In this document: piece after piece, positions 38,075 through 44,302 of the stretch
Position numbering within the stretch: position 1 is the first letter of the stretch
Layout: each line of letters begins with the position of its first letter
Assembly: GCA_017471925.1 (NCBI GenBank)
Contig: JAFURM010000005.1
Location: 61,659-125,658, forward strand
Origin: Bacteroides sp.
Lineage (GTDB): Bacteria; Bacteroidota; Bacteroidia; Bacteroidales; Bacteroidaceae
Reading direction: 5' to 3'
DNA: 64,000 nucleotides
Notes under the pieces: generated by a model
What the model saw: the letters and a program-made list of their open reading frames with translations, nothing else
Told to the model about the DNA's origin: nothing
Database searches by the model: none
Made by a program: the position numbers and the translations under genes

Positions 38075-40516
38075 ATGAACCGATTCGTCTATAACGCATC
38101 ACGCCGCGAGTGGCGACGCTTCACCTCGCGCCGCCTGTACTGGAGCGTCACGCTGGCCTTGCCTCTGTTCTGCCTCCTCTTCATGGCTACCATCTTCGGC
38201 AGCGGACAGATGGAGCAGCTTCCCATAGCGGTGGTGGACCTGGACCATACGCTCTCTTCGCGCAAGGTGGTACGCCTTGTGGAGAGCGTGCCGGCCTTGC
38301 GCATTGCCGCCCGTCCTGTCAATGAGGCCGAAGCCCGTCAGGCCATGCAGGAGATGTCGGTCTATGGCTACTTAGTCATCCCTCATGGCTTTGAGCGCAG
38401 CATGCAGAGGGGCGACGCGACACTGGCCTACTACCTGCACTATGCCCTGCTGTCGGTGGGCGGTGAGCTGACGGCCGCTTTCGAGGAGGCACTGGGTGGT
38501 GTATCCCTTTCGCCCATCATGCTGACGGGAGAACAACTGGGTGCTACGGCGGAGAGCATGGAACGCTTCCTGCTGCCTGTCGTGGGCGATGTCCATCCGT
38601 TGCACAATCCCGACCTGAACTACGCCACCTATCTGACCCAACCCTTCTACTTCATCCTGCTGCAGATACTTGTCCTGCTGCAGACGGTCTACTGCCTGGG
38701 CAGTGAGGTGAAGGAGGGTACGCTGAGGGCATGGCTGCAGGCGGCGGGACTTCCTGCCTCTCTGCCTGCCTCCCCTTTGGACAAAGGGACGCAGGGGCGT
38801 GATGTCCCGACGTCGGGCATGGTGGCCGCTGCCGTATGGGGCAAGCTGTTGCCCTACACGCTGCTCTTCTCGCTGACGGCCGTCACGGCCAACCTCTTCT
38901 TCTGTGGGGTGATGCAGATAGGTGTCAGTGGTTCCCTGTGGTTGCTGAACGGTGTGAGCATCCTCTTCGTGATGGCCACGCAGGCACTGGGTGTGACGCT
39001 CTTCGCCCTCCTGCCCCGCATGGCCTATACGCTCAGCTTCGCTTCCATGATTGGGTCGCTGGGGGCTACGCTGAGCGGGGTCACCTTTCCGCTCAGTGCC
39101 ATGTACCTCCCCGTGAGATGGGCTGCCGCTCTCTTCCCCGTCCGACACTTCACGGAGGCTCTGAAGGGAGTGGTCTATCGGGGCTGCGGAGCAGGTGAAC
39201 TGTGGAGTTCCATAACCTTCCTGTTGCTCTTCATGCTCATGGCTACGGCCCTGTTGCCACTGCTCCGATGGTGGTTGCGGCATCGGCTGTTGCCCGAGGA
39301 GGAAGAGCGTGAGCATCGGCCCGCCTCCGTCGCTGTCTGTCAGACGGATTCCCCCACCCTGCTACAGGTCATCCGCCAAGAGTGGCAGCGCATCAGCCGC
39401 ACGCCTGCCGTCCTGATGGTGCTCTGCGGCGGGATATTCCTCTATGGCCTGCTCTATAATTATATGTATGCGCCCGATGTGGTGCGCCATTCGCCCATTG
39501 TTGTGGTGGATGCCTCCCGCTCCGCCCTGAGCCGTGAGTATATCCGCCTGATGGAGAGCACGCCACAGGTGCGTGTCGTGGCCCACACTCCCGACATGGC
39601 CGAAGCCCGCGAATGGATGAAGCGGGGCGAGGCAGATGCTATTCTCTACCTGCCTGCCGACTTTGAAGGGCGTGTCTATCGGGGTGAGACGGGTCGCTTT
39701 CTGCTCTATGCCTCCACATCCTGCTTCCTTCCGCTGAAGGGCATACAGGAGGCTGCCACGCGCACCATGCTGGCCTTAGACGAACGTTGCCGCACGGTGG
39801 GACTTCCCTTCCTTTCGCCCGGCGGCATCGTGGCAGCAGGCACGACGGCTCCTGTCAGCATCGTGGGACAGGCACTCTACAATCCCTCTGCCGGCTATGG
39901 CAGTTACCTCATCCCGGCCGTACTGGTGGTCATCATCTTCCAGACCATACTCATGCTCACCTCCATGCTACGGGGCGGGGAGAACGAGTTGCGCCCGGAA
40001 GGAGGCATACGCCCTTATGCAACCGCGGCTCCCTGCCTGTGGGGATGGCGGGAAGCCGTCAGGTTAGTTGCCGGACGCACTTTGGTCTGCCTGATGCTCT
40101 ACACGCTCTTCGCCCTCTTCCTGATGGGGCTGCTTCCGTTGCTGTTCCACATTCCCCACCAGGGCAACCTGTCGTCCCTGGCCCTCTTCCTCCTACCCTT
40201 CCTGCTCTCCACCAGTCTCTTTGCCCAGACCTTCGCCCGTTGCTACAGCGATGCCGAGGCACCCCTGCTGCTGATAGCCTTCTTTTCCGTGGGCTACATC
40301 TTCCTGTCGGGAGTCTCCTATCCCTTGGAGCTGATGCCCCGCTTCTGGCAGGGTGTCCGTCTTCTCCTGCCCGCACCTCCGGCCATACAGGCTTTCGTGA
40401 AGTTAGACAGCATGGGTTCCTCCCTATCCGATGCCGCCCCCGAACTGACCATCCTCTGGGCACAGGTCCTGCTCTACGCCACATTGGCCGTGTGGCAGGC
40501 CCGACGGAGCGTGTGA
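38075..40516 (+). CDS. Tandem-fused ABC-2 type transporter permease
   Basis: 813 aa consisting of two homologous ABC-2 permease units. Unit 1 (about 1-412) and unit 2 (about 425-813) share the start pattern REWRRFTSRR / QEWQRISRTP, an extracytoplasmic loop (PIAVVDLDHTLSSRKVVRLVE / PIVVVDASRSALSREYIRLME, each quoted to 20 or fewer contiguous residues) and C-terminal six-helix bundles with SGVTFPLSAMYLP / SGVSYPLELMPR. Linker: EEEEREHRPASVAVCQ. The fusion would supply a whole membrane dimer in one chain. The energising ATPase is not in the operon. An unusual Leu/Pro/Ala-rich stretch lies near residues 226-245. Confidence 0.85.
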   Translation: MNRFVYNASRREWRRFTSRRLYWSVTLALPLFCLLFMATIFGSGQMEQLPIAVVDLDHTLSSRKVVRLVESVPALRIAARPVNEAEARQAMQEMSVYGYLVIPHGFERSMQRGDATLAYYLHYALLSVGGELTAAFEEALGGVSLSPIMLTGEQLGATAESMERFLLPVVGDVHPLHNPDLNYATYLTQPFYFILLQILVLLQTVYCLGSEVKEGTLRAWLQAAGLPASLPASPLDKGTQGRDVPTSGMVAAAVWGKLLPYTLLFSLTAVTANLFFCGVMQIGVSGSLWLLNGVSILFVMATQALGVTLFALLPRMAYTLSFASMIGSLGATLSGVTFPLSAMYLPVRWAAALFPVRHFTEALKGVVYRGCGAGELWSSITFLLLFMLMATALLPLLRWWLRHRLLPEEEEREHRPASVAVCQTDSPTLLQVIRQEWQRISRTPAVLMVLCGGIFLYGLLYNYMYAPDVVRHSPIVVVDASRSALSREYIRLMESTPQVRVVAHTPDMAEAREWMKRGEADAILYLPADFEGRVYRGETGRFLLYASTSCFLPLKGIQEAATRTMLALDERCRTVGLPFLSPGGIVAAGTTAPVSIVGQALYNPSAGYGSYLIPAVLVVIIFQTILMLTSMLRGGENELRPEGGIRPYATAAPCLWGWREAVRLVAGRTLVCLMLYTLFALFLMGLLPLLFHIPHQGNLSSLALFLLPFLLSTSLFAQTFARCYSDAEAPLLLIAFFSVGYIFLSGVSYPLELMPRFWQGVRLLLPAPPAIQAFVKLDSMGSSLSDAAPELTILWAQVLLYATLAVWQARRSV

Positions 40517-40580
40517 ATGAGGCGACACCTTATTTCTTCCCTCTTATCGGCATGTTTTCCTGCTTTCCCGTTCGTTTCTG

Positions 40581-40675
40581 AATATAAAACCGTACTTTTG
40601 CACAAACAACTGTAAGCATCATGATACCTGACGAACTGAAGAAACTATACGTGGCCTGTACGGGCCATGCCCCTA
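40581..40675 (+). repeat. 95-bp direct repeat, left copy
   Basis: Identical at 95 of 95 positions to 42095-42189. It carries the -7 box TACTTTTG (40593-40600), the leader and the first 18 codons of the sugar-kinase gene. Preceding and following bases differ, so these are exact repeat limits. Confidence 0.95.
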
Positions 40676-40704
40676 CTTTTCCAAGCGGGTACACATTCAA
40701 GTGA
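40621..40704 (+). pseudogene. Truncated 5' copy of the sugar-kinase gene
   Basis: Starts with the same 18 codons as the kinase at 42135, then diverges at 40676 and stops after 27 codons (TGA at 40702-40704). It may act as a short leader frame for the inserted ATPase gene. Confidence 0.8.
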
Positions 40705-42094
40705 CGTCAGCAATTCTGTTTTATGGAAATAGAAACCGGGTAATGACATCATTTATGGAAATAGGAAACAAGAAATTTGCAGTTTTATGGAAATAGGACT
40801 ATTTTTGCAGTGAAATAAACAGAATCATGAATATACAGACCTTACTGTCAATAGTAGCAGACCAGCGCGATGAGTTGCTTGCGAATGATTGTTCTGAGTT
40901 GTGCTCACGTCCTGAAGAATCACAGCTTGATTTGAAAAGCAATCGAGCTCAGGTGGTAATAGGTGTCAGACGATGTGGCAAATCTACTTTATGTGAAATG
41001 TTTCTTAAACAAAAAGGAATTGAATTCGCCTATGTGAACTTTGATGATAATCGAATGGAGGATATGAAAGCAAGTGATTTAGATCACTTGCTTGAAGCGT
41101 TATATATGACATATGGCGACTTCAAATACCTGTTCCTTGACGAAATACAGAATGTTGAAGGGTGGCCCTTGTTCGTCAATAGATTGCTTCGTCTGAAAAT
41201 GCATCTGTTTATTACAGGTTCTAACTCTAAGTTGCTCAGCACGGAGTTAAGTACGCACTTGACAGGAAGAAACAATAAAGTGGAACTCTATCCATTCTCA
41301 TTCTCGGAATATTGTACGATGAAGAAGATTGACTCCACTTCGCTATCAACCAAGGCAAAAGGTCTGCGTAAAAGCACTCTGCATGAATATCTTCAACAAG
41401 GTGGTTTCCCTGAATTATTCAATGAAAGTAATCGTAGAGGCTACATAAATGGATTGTTGGATGCTATCATCAAGAATGATATAGCGAAACGCTTCAAGGT
41501 TCGTAATGTGGAGGCTCTGCGAAGAATTGCTGCTTATATTTCCGATAATTATTGCCAGGAATTTGTAGCCAAGACGGTAGGTGAACTGTTCGGGGTATCA
41601 AACCATACGGCAGAGAACTATTATTCCTATCTCAAAGAGGCCTTCCTGATGGTAGGAGTCAATAGATTCTCATATAAAAGTAAAGATAGGGTAAGAAACG
41701 AGAAAGTATATATTGTGGATACTGCATTTGTTACTGAACGTGTGGACAATTTCTCATTGGAAAATCTCGGTTGGAAACTGGAAAATGTTGTATGCATAGA
41801 ACTTATGCGTCGTTATAAGCCTCTCTTTTGTGACGTTTTCTACTACAAGGAAACATCATCACAAGTGGATTTTGTTATAGCGAAAGATGGTAATGTACAA
41901 GAGTTGATACAAGTATCATATGACATCTCTGTTGAAAAGACACGTAATAGAGAGATTAGAGGATTGAAGAATGCCGCCAAGAAACTCAAATGTAATAATC
42001 TTACACTTGTAACCTTTGAAGAACACGGGACAATCGAAGAGGATGGCTATACTATAAATGTAATGCCTGCCACGGAGTGGTTACTTGACAAATA
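40676..42094 (+). mobile_element. Inserted DUF4143 ATPase unit between the 95-bp repeats
   Basis: A 1419-bp AT-rich segment holding one gene and its promoter, placed precisely between two identical 95-bp repeats of the kinase 5' end. The ATPase stop codon (42093-42095) shares its last base with the repeat. The insert is clearly more AT-rich than both neighbours. No transposase, integrase or terminal inverted repeats are visible. Confidence 0.75.
40719..40807 (+). promoter_or_regulatory. Promoter of the ATPase gene with phased repeats
   Basis: Three copies of TTTATGGAAATAG (40720-40732, 40752-40764, 40784-40796) recur at exactly 32-bp intervals. TTTG (40776-40779), 20-bp spacer and TATTTTTG (40800-40807) form a full consensus promoter. 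The third repeat fills the spacer, where a bound protein would block transcription. Confidence 0.75.
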
Positions 42095-42095
42095 A
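40827..42095 (+). CDS. AAA ATPase with DUF4143 domain
   Basis: 422 aa. P-loop GVRRCGKST (about 47-55), Walker B FLDEIQNVEGW, a sensor-like LFITGSNSKLLS, then AYISDNYCQEF and a helical-wing region, and the C-terminal DUF4143 domain with a nuclease-like fold (CIELMRRYKPLFCDVFYYKE, then EVDF-type SSQVDFVIAKDG). Such ATPases are abundant in Bacteroides, with unsettled roles. This copy forms an insertion flanked by an exact 95-bp duplication and has its own promoter with repeated operators. Stand-alone gene. The D/K residues in VDFVIA suggest possible nuclease activity. Confidence 0.9.
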   Translation: MNIQTLLSIVADQRDELLANDCSELCSRPEESQLDLKSNRAQVVIGVRRCGKSTLCEMFLKQKGIEFAYVNFDDNRMEDMKASDLDHLLEALYMTYGDFKYLFLDEIQNVEGWPLFVNRLLRLKMHLFITGSNSKLLSTELSTHLTGRNNKVELYPFSFSEYCTMKKIDSTSLSTKAKGLRKSTLHEYLQQGGFPELFNESNRRGYINGLLDAIIKNDIAKRFKVRNVEALRRIAAYISDNYCQEFVAKTVGELFGVSNHTAENYYSYLKEAFLMVGVNRFSYKSKDRVRNEKVYIVDTAFVTERVDNFSLENLGWKLENVVCIELMRRYKPLFCDVFYYKETSSQVDFVIAKDGNVQELIQVSYDISVEKTRNREIRGLKNAAKKLKCNNLTLVTFEEHGTIEEDGYTINVMPATEWLLDK

Positions 42096-42189
42096 ATATA
42101 AAACCGTACTTTTGCACAAACAACTGTAAGCATCATGATACCTGACGAACTGAAGAAACTATACGTGGCCTGTACGGGCCATGCCCCTA
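42095..42189 (+). repeat. 95-bp direct repeat, right copy
   Basis: Identical to 40581-40675. Contains TACTTTTG (42107-42114) and the start of the intact kinase gene. The -33-like CTTG (42084-42087, spacing 19) now comes from the end of the ATPase gene. Confidence 0.95.
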
Positions 42190-43568
42190 TAGCGATAGAA
42201 GAGATGCCGGCCAGCGGCTCCAACCGTCGCTACTTCCGACTGACGGGAGAACCTACCCTGATTGGCGTGAGCGGTGAATCGCTTGAGGAGAACCGGGCCT
42301 TCCTCTACATGGCCCGCCACTTTGCCGATAAGGAGATACCCGTGCCCCGCATACTGGCCTGCTCGGACGACGAAATGTTCTACCTGCAGGAAGACCTGGG
42401 CCATACGCTGCTCTTCGATGCCATTGAGAAGGGACGCCTTGGCGGAGAGTTCAGTGAAGAAGAGAAGCAACTGCTGCGCAAGACGATGCGCCTGCTGCCC
42501 AAGGTGCAGTTTGCCGGAGCCGAAGGTATGGACTTCTCCCACTGTTACCCTCAACCCGAGTTCAACCGCCGCAGCATCCTATGGGACCTGAACTACTTCA
42601 AGTATTGCTTCCTGAAGGCTACCGGAATGGACTTTCAGGAAGACCGGCTGGAGGATGACTTCCGGCAGATGGCCGACGTGCTGCTGCAAAACAGCTCGGA
42701 CACCTTTATGTATCGCGACTTTCAAAGCCGCAACGTCATGGTGAAGGAGGGAGAGCCGTGGCTGATAGACTTCCAGGGCGGACGGAAAGGCCCCTACTAC
42801 TATGACGTGGCCTCCTTCCTGTGGCAGGCCAAGGCCAACTATCCCGAAAGCCTGCGCCAAGAGTTGCTGCAGGAGTATCTCACTGCCTTGCGCGACTATC
42901 AGCCGATAGATGAGGAGACGTTCCATGCCCGCTTGCGCCACTTCGTGCTCTTCCGCACGTTGCAGGTGTTGGGCGCATACGGCTTCCGAGGCTACTTTGA
43001 GAAGAAGCCCCACTTCATACAGAGCGTCCCCTTTGCCATAGCGAACCTGCGCCAACTGCTGATGCAACCCTTCACCGAATATCCCTACCTGGACAGCCTG
43101 CTTCGTCGGCTCACCACGCTGAAGCAGTTTGCAGACAGCAAGAAGCAGCCCTTGGTGGTGCACGTGATGAGCTTTGCCTACAAGAAGGGGATTCCCGAAG
43201 ACCCCAGCGGCAACGGCGGCGGTTTCGTCTTCGACTGTCGGGCGGTGCACAACCCCGGCAAGTATGAACGCTACAAGCCTCTCACCGGTATGGATGAGCC
43301 GGTCATCCGCTTTTTAGAAGAGGATGGAGAAATCACGACCTTCCTGGAACATGCCCGTGCGTTGGTGGATGCCAGTGTGAAACGTTACATGGAGCGCGGA
43401 TTCACCAACCTCAGCGTCTGCTTCGGATGCACAGGCGGACAACACCGCAGTGTGTACAGTGCCCAGCACATGGCTCTGCACCTGAACCAGACATTCGGTG
43501 TGGAGGTGAGGCTGACGCATCGGGAACAGCATATAGAACGAATCTTACCTGCACGAAGCGACCTATGA
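42135..43568 (+). CDS. Sugar kinase (AmgK-like) fused to a RapZ C-terminal domain
   Basis: 477 aa. Residues 1-330 are an aminoglycoside-phosphotransferase-fold kinase: SGSNRRYFRL, HTLLFD, the catalytic loop MYRDFQSRNVMV and the metal loop LIDFQGGRKGPYYYD. This resembles AmgK, which phosphorylates MurNAc/GlcNAc at the anomeric position. Residues about 338-477 match the RapZ C-terminal domain (HVMSFAYKKGIP, FDCRAVHNPG, FGCTGGQHRSVY). The MurU-like gene follows with a 4-bp overlap, so a cell-wall sugar salvage role (MurNAc to UDP-MurNAc) is the best inference. The 5' end is duplicated upstream by the ATPase insertion. Confidence 0.85.
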   Translation: MIPDELKKLYVACTGHAPIAIEEMPASGSNRRYFRLTGEPTLIGVSGESLEENRAFLYMARHFADKEIPVPRILACSDDEMFYLQEDLGHTLLFDAIEKGRLGGEFSEEEKQLLRKTMRLLPKVQFAGAEGMDFSHCYPQPEFNRRSILWDLNYFKYCFLKATGMDFQEDRLEDDFRQMADVLLQNSSDTFMYRDFQSRNVMVKEGEPWLIDFQGGRKGPYYYDVASFLWQAKANYPESLRQELLQEYLTALRDYQPIDEETFHARLRHFVLFRTLQVLGAYGFRGYFEKKPHFIQSVPFAIANLRQLLMQPFTEYPYLDSLLRRLTTLKQFADSKKQPLVVHVMSFAYKKGIPEDPSGNGGGFVFDCRAVHNPGKYERYKPLTGMDEPVIRFLEEDGEITTFLEHARALVDASVKRYMERGFTNLSVCFGCTGGQHRSVYSAQHMALHLNQTFGVEVRLTHREQHIERILPARSDL

Positions 43569-44302
43569 AAGCCATGATATTTGCCGCCGGACTCGGCACA
43601 CGCCTGCGTCCTCTTACCGACCACATGCCCAAAGCCTTGGTGCCCGTGGCAGGCATACCCATGTTGCAACGGGTCATCCTGCGACTGAAGGCGGCAGGAT
43701 TTGACCACATCACCGTGAACATCCACCACTTCGGCCAACAGATAATAGACTTCCTGAAGGCCAACGATGACTTCGGAGTAACCATACACATCAGTGACGA
43801 ACGAGACGAACTGTTGGACACGGGCGGAGGTATCCGGAAAGCCCGCCCGTTCTTAGACGGCAACGAACCCTTCCTGGTGCACAATGCCGACATCCTGACC
43901 GACCTGGACCTCTCGGCCTTCTACCGTCATCATCAGGAGAGCAAGGCCGAGGCCACACTGCTTGTGGCCCGCAGGAAGACTTCGCGCTACCTGCTGATGG
44001 ATAGTGACATGCGACTGCGGGGATGGATAAACAAGGCAACGGGCGAAACCCGTCCCGAGGGTATCGCCCGTTGCATGGGCCACTGGCAGGAGTGGGCCTT
44101 TGGCGGCATCCATGTCATCTCGCCCACCCTTTTCCGACAGATGGAAGGGGCAGCCTGGGAAGGCAGGTTCTCCATCATCCCTTTCTATCTCTCCATCTGC
44201 CGGGACACCTGCCTGCAAGGCTATCAGGACGAACACGTCCAATGGTTCGACATCGGCAAGCCCGAGACTTTGGAACAGGCAAGCAGAGCAATGATGGAAT
44301 GA
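43565..44302 (+). CDS. Sugar-1-phosphate nucleotidyltransferase (MurU-like)
   Basis: 245 aa. N-terminal nucleotide-binding motif MIFAAGLGTRLRPLTDHMPK with the usual GLGTRLRPLT and PKAL, the metal-binding VHNADILTD and the substrate region FGGIHVISP. Together with the kinase upstream, translationally coupled, this fits the AmgK-MurU salvage pathway forming UDP-MurNAc from MurNAc-1-phosphate. Sugar specificity cannot be fixed from sequence. A palindromic repeat downstream (44340-44456) may end the transcript. Confidence 0.87.
   Translation: MKAMIFAAGLGTRLRPLTDHMPKALVPVAGIPMLQRVILRLKAAGFDHITVNIHHFGQQIIDFLKANDDFGVTIHISDERDELLDTGGGIRKARPFLDGNEPFLVHNADILTDLDLSAFYRHHQESKAEATLLVARRKTSRYLLMDSDMRLRGWINKATGETRPEGIARCMGHWQEWAFGGIHVISPTLFRQMEGAAWEGRFSIIPFYLSICRDTCLQGYQDEHVQWFDIGKPETLEQASRAMME

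Follow-up and report, generated by a model that had tools for sequence, protein, structure and literature searches.

How did a single ATPase gene come to lie between two identical copies of the beginning of the gene that follows it? This arrangement is found at one locus of the window, by which we mean the whole 64,000-nucleotide stretch of Bacteroides sp. DNA that was analyzed, and our analysis indicates that the ATPase gene is probably a one-gene mobile unit that was inserted with a long target duplication of variable length.

All features of this locus are on the forward strand. The sequence at 40581 to 40675 recurs as a direct repeat at 42095 to 42189, identical at 95 of 95 positions, as an earlier note on this DNA had claimed, and offset by 1,514 bp. 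The bases adjacent to the two copies differ on either side, and the exact repeat length is therefore 95 bp. No other exact direct repeat of at least 30 bp occurs in the window, and a genome search found two copies of the 95-bp sequence in the 2.87-Mb draft genome, both at this locus. Each copy contains a -7-like box (TACTTTTG, at 40593 and 42107), a leader, and codons 1 to 18 of a kinase gene, with the ATG at 40621 or 42135, and this content also agrees with the earlier description. The right copy is the 5' end of an intact kinase gene (42135 to 43568; ORF of 477 aa with APH and RapZ C-terminal domains in Pfam), which is the source of the repeat and retains its own start as had been proposed. 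The left copy is a nonfunctional duplicate of this 5' end, and its left neighbor is an ABC-2 type permease gene (ORF at 38075 to 40516; Pfam PF12698 and PF01061).

Between the copies lies a unit of 1,419 bp (40676 to 42094) with a GC content of 38%, compared with 62% for the permease gene and 57% for the kinase gene. Its single gene encodes an AAA_14-DUF4143 ATPase of 422 aa (40827 to 42095), and the right copy begins with the final A of its TAA stop codon, as previously noted. Pfam at E ≤ 0.001 detected only AAA_14 and DUF4143 in this protein, which bears out the claims that the insert holds this gene and its promoter alone and that no transposase is present, except that the unit also contains three 13-bp repeats (TTTATGGAAATAG) within 40720 to 40796. 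These repeats start at 40720, 40752, and 40784, a step of exactly 32 bp, and are possibly binding sites for a protein. They stand directly 5' of TATTTTTG at 40800 to 40807, a putative -7-like box of the ATPase gene identified by a match to the motif pattern. At the other end of the unit, in the region of 42080 to 42114, the bases about 20 bp upstream of the right-copy -7-like box belong to the 3' end of the inserted ATPase gene. Any -33 element, and hence expression of the kinase, may therefore differ from that at an uninterrupted site. For an estimate of chance similarity, we scored up to 400 random pairings of upstream with downstream flanks of DUF4143 loci. The flank-alignment score at the window locus was 190 and the 99th percentile of the random pairings was 33; two null draws likewise scored 190, most likely because the window locus had been fetched twice (L009 and L044).

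We then considered the kinase site in relatives. The kinase is encoded in 36 of the 41 genomes searched, its own included (35 of the 40 others), and no DUF4143 ORF of at least 150 aa lay upstream of the kinase at any of 29 loci retrieved from other genomes, all of which extend 1,431 bp or more in that direction. This result, along with the neighbor duplications that flank other DUF4143 genes, supports the central claim of the earlier note that the ATPase gene and its promoter were inserted as a unit at the 5' end of the kinase gene with duplication of the target. The permease had no match by tblastn in the kinase loci of relatives, indicating that the left neighbor is not conserved there and that no unit-free site with both window flanks exists among these loci. 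Among 157 further genomes of the genus, none has a close copy of the window unit, and three matched parts of it at 65 to 67%. This lack of a near second copy counts against a mobile unit.

To learn whether the arrangement recurs, we surveyed DUF4143 loci, with protein similarity as the sole basis of choice. The sequences before and after each gene, up to 700 bp on either side, were aligned with one another, a spanning repeat being an alignment with a score of at least 60, and other ORFs of at least 200 aa within the same loci served as controls. In a first set, 18 of 125 DUF4143 genes had a spanning repeat, as did 9 of 398 control ORFs; in a second set, drawn from named genome contigs, the counts were 12 of 78 and 3 of 205, respectively. 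Under strict criteria, which limited identity, position, and complexity and excluded kinase loci from the controls, repeats were found at 8 of 125 DUF4143 genes and 2 of 314 controls in the first set and at 7 of 78 and 2 of 205, respectively, in the second. When solitary and non-solitary genes were taken together, 30 of 200 DUF4143 genes and 12 of 427 controls were positive. The earlier note had expected other DUF4143 genes to be flanked by duplications, and these do occur, more commonly than at controls. The excess is real but moderate. Most DUF4143 loci (170 of 200) have no spanning repeat, which counts against the mobile-unit reading, and we observed none at the 19 DUF4143 genes tested on viral contigs or at the 6 on plasmid records (L305 to L310). 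Two of these records (L305, NZ_OY725905.1; L306, NZ_OY725942.1) are named plasmids yet carry genes such as those for an ispG-type synthase and malate dehydrogenase, and they look like chromosomal contigs.

In the 15 strict cases (of 203 genes), the repeats are 37 to 111 bp long, the left copy ends 53 to 293 bp before the ATG, and the right copy begins at -9 to +153 relative to the stop codon, where the filter admitted -45 to +160. Such variation in repeat length and unit ends is unlike a classical transposon and counts against the mobile-unit reading. At several DUF4143 loci, the repeat contains the start or the end of an adjoining gene. In the clearest cases, by our reading of the sequences, the repeats contain the 3' ends of a hybrid two-component regulator gene at L100 (106/106 positions identical), a 381-aa ORF at L068 (60/63), an argB-like gene at L147 (81/94), a HIT-like gene of a Methanoperedenaceae archaeon at L260 (103/111), and a YidD-like gene at L199 (73/78). 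A further locus, L190, which was found by its similarity to the window unit, has a repeat (131/139) that includes the 3' part of a 254-aa ORF. In the window, L100, and L137, the target supplies part of the stop codon or the last codons of the ATPase gene.

The extent of the unit could be read from pairs of DUF4143 genes that are at least 80% identical over at least 900 bp and have unlike flanks. We obtained 14 such pairs after setting aside three comparisons among genomes G012, G021, and G068, which share one site. Similarity starts 38 to 162 bp before the ATG in all 14 pairs, and in 13 of them it ends near the stop codon, from 34 bp upstream to 3 bp downstream of it. Examples are L102/L103 (96% identity, limits -97 to +3), L148/L150 within one genome (93%, -162 to -2), and L211/L215 (89%, -117 to +1); the exception, L080/L082, also within one genome, remains similar to +52. 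In pairs of lower identity, the end of similarity could instead reflect fast divergence outside the gene. We also observed that direct repeats upstream (score of at least 12) are common in the family, being present at 118 of 204 DUF4143 genes as compared with 60 of 602 controls, and that 63 of the 118 but only 8 of the 60 have a period of 32 or 33. The repeat motif varies by DUF4143 subfamily.

Remnants of such units also exist. Three loci retain a 3' end without a 5' part (L155, 1 to 178, 53 bp; L336, 1501 to 1692, 192 bp; L095, 3513 to 3704, 192 bp), and a fourth DUF4143 fragment, L339, terminates at a contig end. L155 occupies the L100 site, and L336 shares its right flank with L150 (identity at 105 of 136 aligned positions), so that decay of old insertions accounts for both. 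Three remnants are too few to decide whether 5'-truncated insertion, as in LINE-type elements, also takes place. Searches of 295 genomes of the order with the L148 unit found, outside its own genome, one 192-bp fragment only, and those with the L102 unit found no match outside its own genome. An Acinetobacter DUF4143 gene, with which we sought strain-level empty sites, had no match in the E. coli collection.

The insertion at L100 allowed a comparison between species. It is common to the one-contig genomes G021 and G068, with identical boundaries of 106 bp, and each genome contains only two copies of the 106-bp repeat. The copies are identical (106/106) in G021 and differ at six positions in G068, where each change is private to one copy, indicating that the copies were identical when the lineages split. 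The earlier note had taken perfect identity as a sign of a recent event; this is not secure, since the L100 copies were already identical at the species split and remain so in one lineage, and homogenization or gene conversion between copies is possible. In G052, the regulator gene (~76% identical) has a single repeat region and no unit, although past the gene its sequence does not resemble that in G021. Joining the G021 flanks in silico gave a regulator of 1,343 aa with a C terminus unlike that of the present 1,336-aa form. The earlier note had also suggested excision by recombination between the repeats. We saw no such event, and the losses that we found are partial: G009 retains the last 53 bp of the unit, close to a contig end, and G012 has the unit but lacks the left copy within the 9.4 kb retrieved. 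At this G012 locus (L099, 3914 to 9294), identity to G021 is 94% for the unit and 83% for the adjoining regulator gene, a pattern suggestive of exchange of the unit between species.

Some loci appear to be head to tail, which bears on one alternative, namely that a circle that contained both the ATPase gene and the 5' end of the kinase gene entered by ordinary homologous recombination at the kinase start. A single crossover of this kind would produce repeat, unit, and repeat in that order, the circle having come from a strain with the unit already in place. It would yield exact repeats of any length, accounting for their variation, and it would suit L147, where the left repeats recur right after the stop codon, L222, where 41 bp of the 3' end of the gene recur exactly at the left end, and L095, with its 192-bp 3' end upstream. 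Upstream copies of the 3' tail (score of at least 36), some of which are the target repeat itself, were found at 7 of 232 DUF4143 genes; the corresponding count for controls was 4 of 571. However, a crossover spreads an existing insertion and leaves the first one unexplained, and it requires a circle with a matching piece of chromosome at many unrelated sites and in many unrelated hosts. We therefore regard this route as unlikely.

A second alternative invokes no special mobility. Transferred solitary accessory genes would be integrated through illegitimate repair, with an occasional target duplication, or would sit between dispersed repeats, with the DUF4143 gene as a passenger. Solitary control ORFs do have spanning repeats (10 of 188), indicating that part of the signal is background, and the variable unit ends are likewise as this alternative would have it. 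So are several of the hits, which we classed by eye as hairpin-like (L198 and L253), promoter-like (L231 and L240), or of low complexity (L264 and L122). The repeat at L065 is palindromic, and two relatives with a right flank 93% identical (G094 and G167) have no unit there but are alike over 57 of the 108 bp of the repeat. At L065 and these six loci, the repeats may be dispersed ones. On the Diapherotrites contig of L264 (1534 to 4311), we observed two tandem DUF4143 genes with similar repeats before, between, and after them. Dispersed repeats as the source were ruled out for the window and L100, with two copies of each repeat per genome. Against this alternative more generally, solitary DUF4143 genes have spanning repeats three times as often as solitary controls (25 of 153 against 10 of 188; p = 8e-4), the excess was found in two sets, and related units have the same narrow limits and a common upstream architecture. 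On balance, we find the absence of special mobility an improbable explanation. That the window duplication is an artefact of its draft assembly, which has 59 contigs and an estimated completeness of 89%, is very improbable, as G021 and G068, each a one-contig genome, have this architecture too, as do other assemblies.

Target sequence is duplicated around the unit of the window and around related units, and the limits of these units are evident from their alignments. Together with the genome-unique 95-bp pair, the excess of repeats at DUF4143 genes in two sets, the low GC content of the unit, the L100 insertion in two species with a unit-free target gene in G052, and the similarity of units with unlike flanks over the unit alone, these observations favor insertion of a mobile unit. 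Such a unit would comprise a left part with repeats spaced by ~32 bp, a promoter, and an ORF that extends to the right end. At the window locus, it would have entered the 5' end of the kinase gene, and duplication of ~95 bp of target would have left the kinase start intact. We infer that breaks or nicks on the two strands, lying tens to more than 100 nt apart, would be filled in after the unit had joined. A long duplication of this type would be a simple route into a gene boundary that leaves the neighbor intact.

The first candidate for the enzyme would be the unit's own protein, which may otherwise be a passenger. Residues G46, R48, R49, G51, and K52 of Walker A and D105 and E106 of Walker B are invariant in 70 sequences, and the best fold matches are SSO1545, PABY2304, a plant NLR, and CED-4. 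With both the Walker motifs and a STAND/AAA+ fold, the window protein is a STAND-type P-loop NTPase. Its C-terminal domain has the fold of the PD-(D/E)XK superfamily, in which E319, D348, and Q362 are invariant but all 70 relatives have S, C, A, or T in place of the catalytic lysine; a distant relative, L127, reads E-C-K there. Due to the absence of this lysine, we do not file the protein as an active canonical nuclease. It is an attractive idea that the ATPase itself performs the insertion, since an NTPase, a winged-helix-like region, and a nuclease fold would act from a single chain encoded beside the repeat array. The absent lysine counts against the ATPase acting as a standard nuclease.

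The protein matches the PADLOC profile PDLC04787 of PDC-S01 (E = 1.9e-105), a candidate single-gene defense family. In the part of the source cited here, PDC-S01 is an ATPase domain fused to a PD-(D/E)XK superfamily member that is abundant in Bacteria (29,494 systems) and Archaea (9,986 systems) and ranks as the fourth most common defense across prokaryotes, with validation pending for most such candidates (PMC12988326). That part presents the family as an unvalidated defense candidate and makes no mention of one-gene movement, target duplications, or a 32-bp array (PMC12988326). The protein family is thus already known as a defense candidate. Our searches of the open-access literature brought up no account of its genes moving singly, with a 32-bp array and long target duplications of variable length.

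Other known systems share some of these features. The archaeal STAND-type ATPases SSO1545 (2fna) and PABY2304 (2qen) are 15 to 19% identical to the window protein, which adds the DUF4143 C-terminal domain. Relative to Tn7-type TnsA/TnsC and McrBC, the window protein has both functions in one chain, lacks the lysine at the catalytic position, and is encoded in a unit without partner genes. Classical insertion sequences are similar in being small one-gene units flanked by duplicated target, but the window unit's protein has no transposase or recombinase domain, and none of the five inverted-repeat pairs (minimum length of 20) in 39000 to 44000 joins the ends of the unit. Insertion sequences make short target duplications of fixed length, in contrast to the 37 to 111 bp, with no fixed length, in the strict cases of DUF4143 units.

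These findings suggest that a common suspected virus-defense family of bacteria and archaea moves as one-gene units by an undescribed route. Such movement, with long target duplications, would help account for the scattered distribution of the family and would point to a DNA insertion reaction without a known recombinase, and defense candidates found through their embedding among other genes would merit a second look. If the ATPase moves itself, it would be in a class of its own. We propose only tentatively, and think it somewhat doubtful, that AAA_14-DUF4143 (PDC-S01) genes form a distinct class of minimal self-moving element, in which a STAND-type NTPase with a nuclease-fold domain, a 32-bp repeat array as the left end, and a stop codon near the right end would combine with widely staggered cutting and duplications of ~40 to more than 100 bp that spare the neighbor gene. 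The defense label of the family ("guilt-by-embedding") would then be due in part to insertion at gene boundaries.

One of the control ORFs in our survey (L274, 1267 to 2331) has a GLRRVGKTSL motif, recognized by eye, that makes it resemble a STAND-type ATPase, and it is flanked by a repeat with 32 of 37 positions identical. The flanking-repeat trait may thus reach beyond DUF4143 genes.
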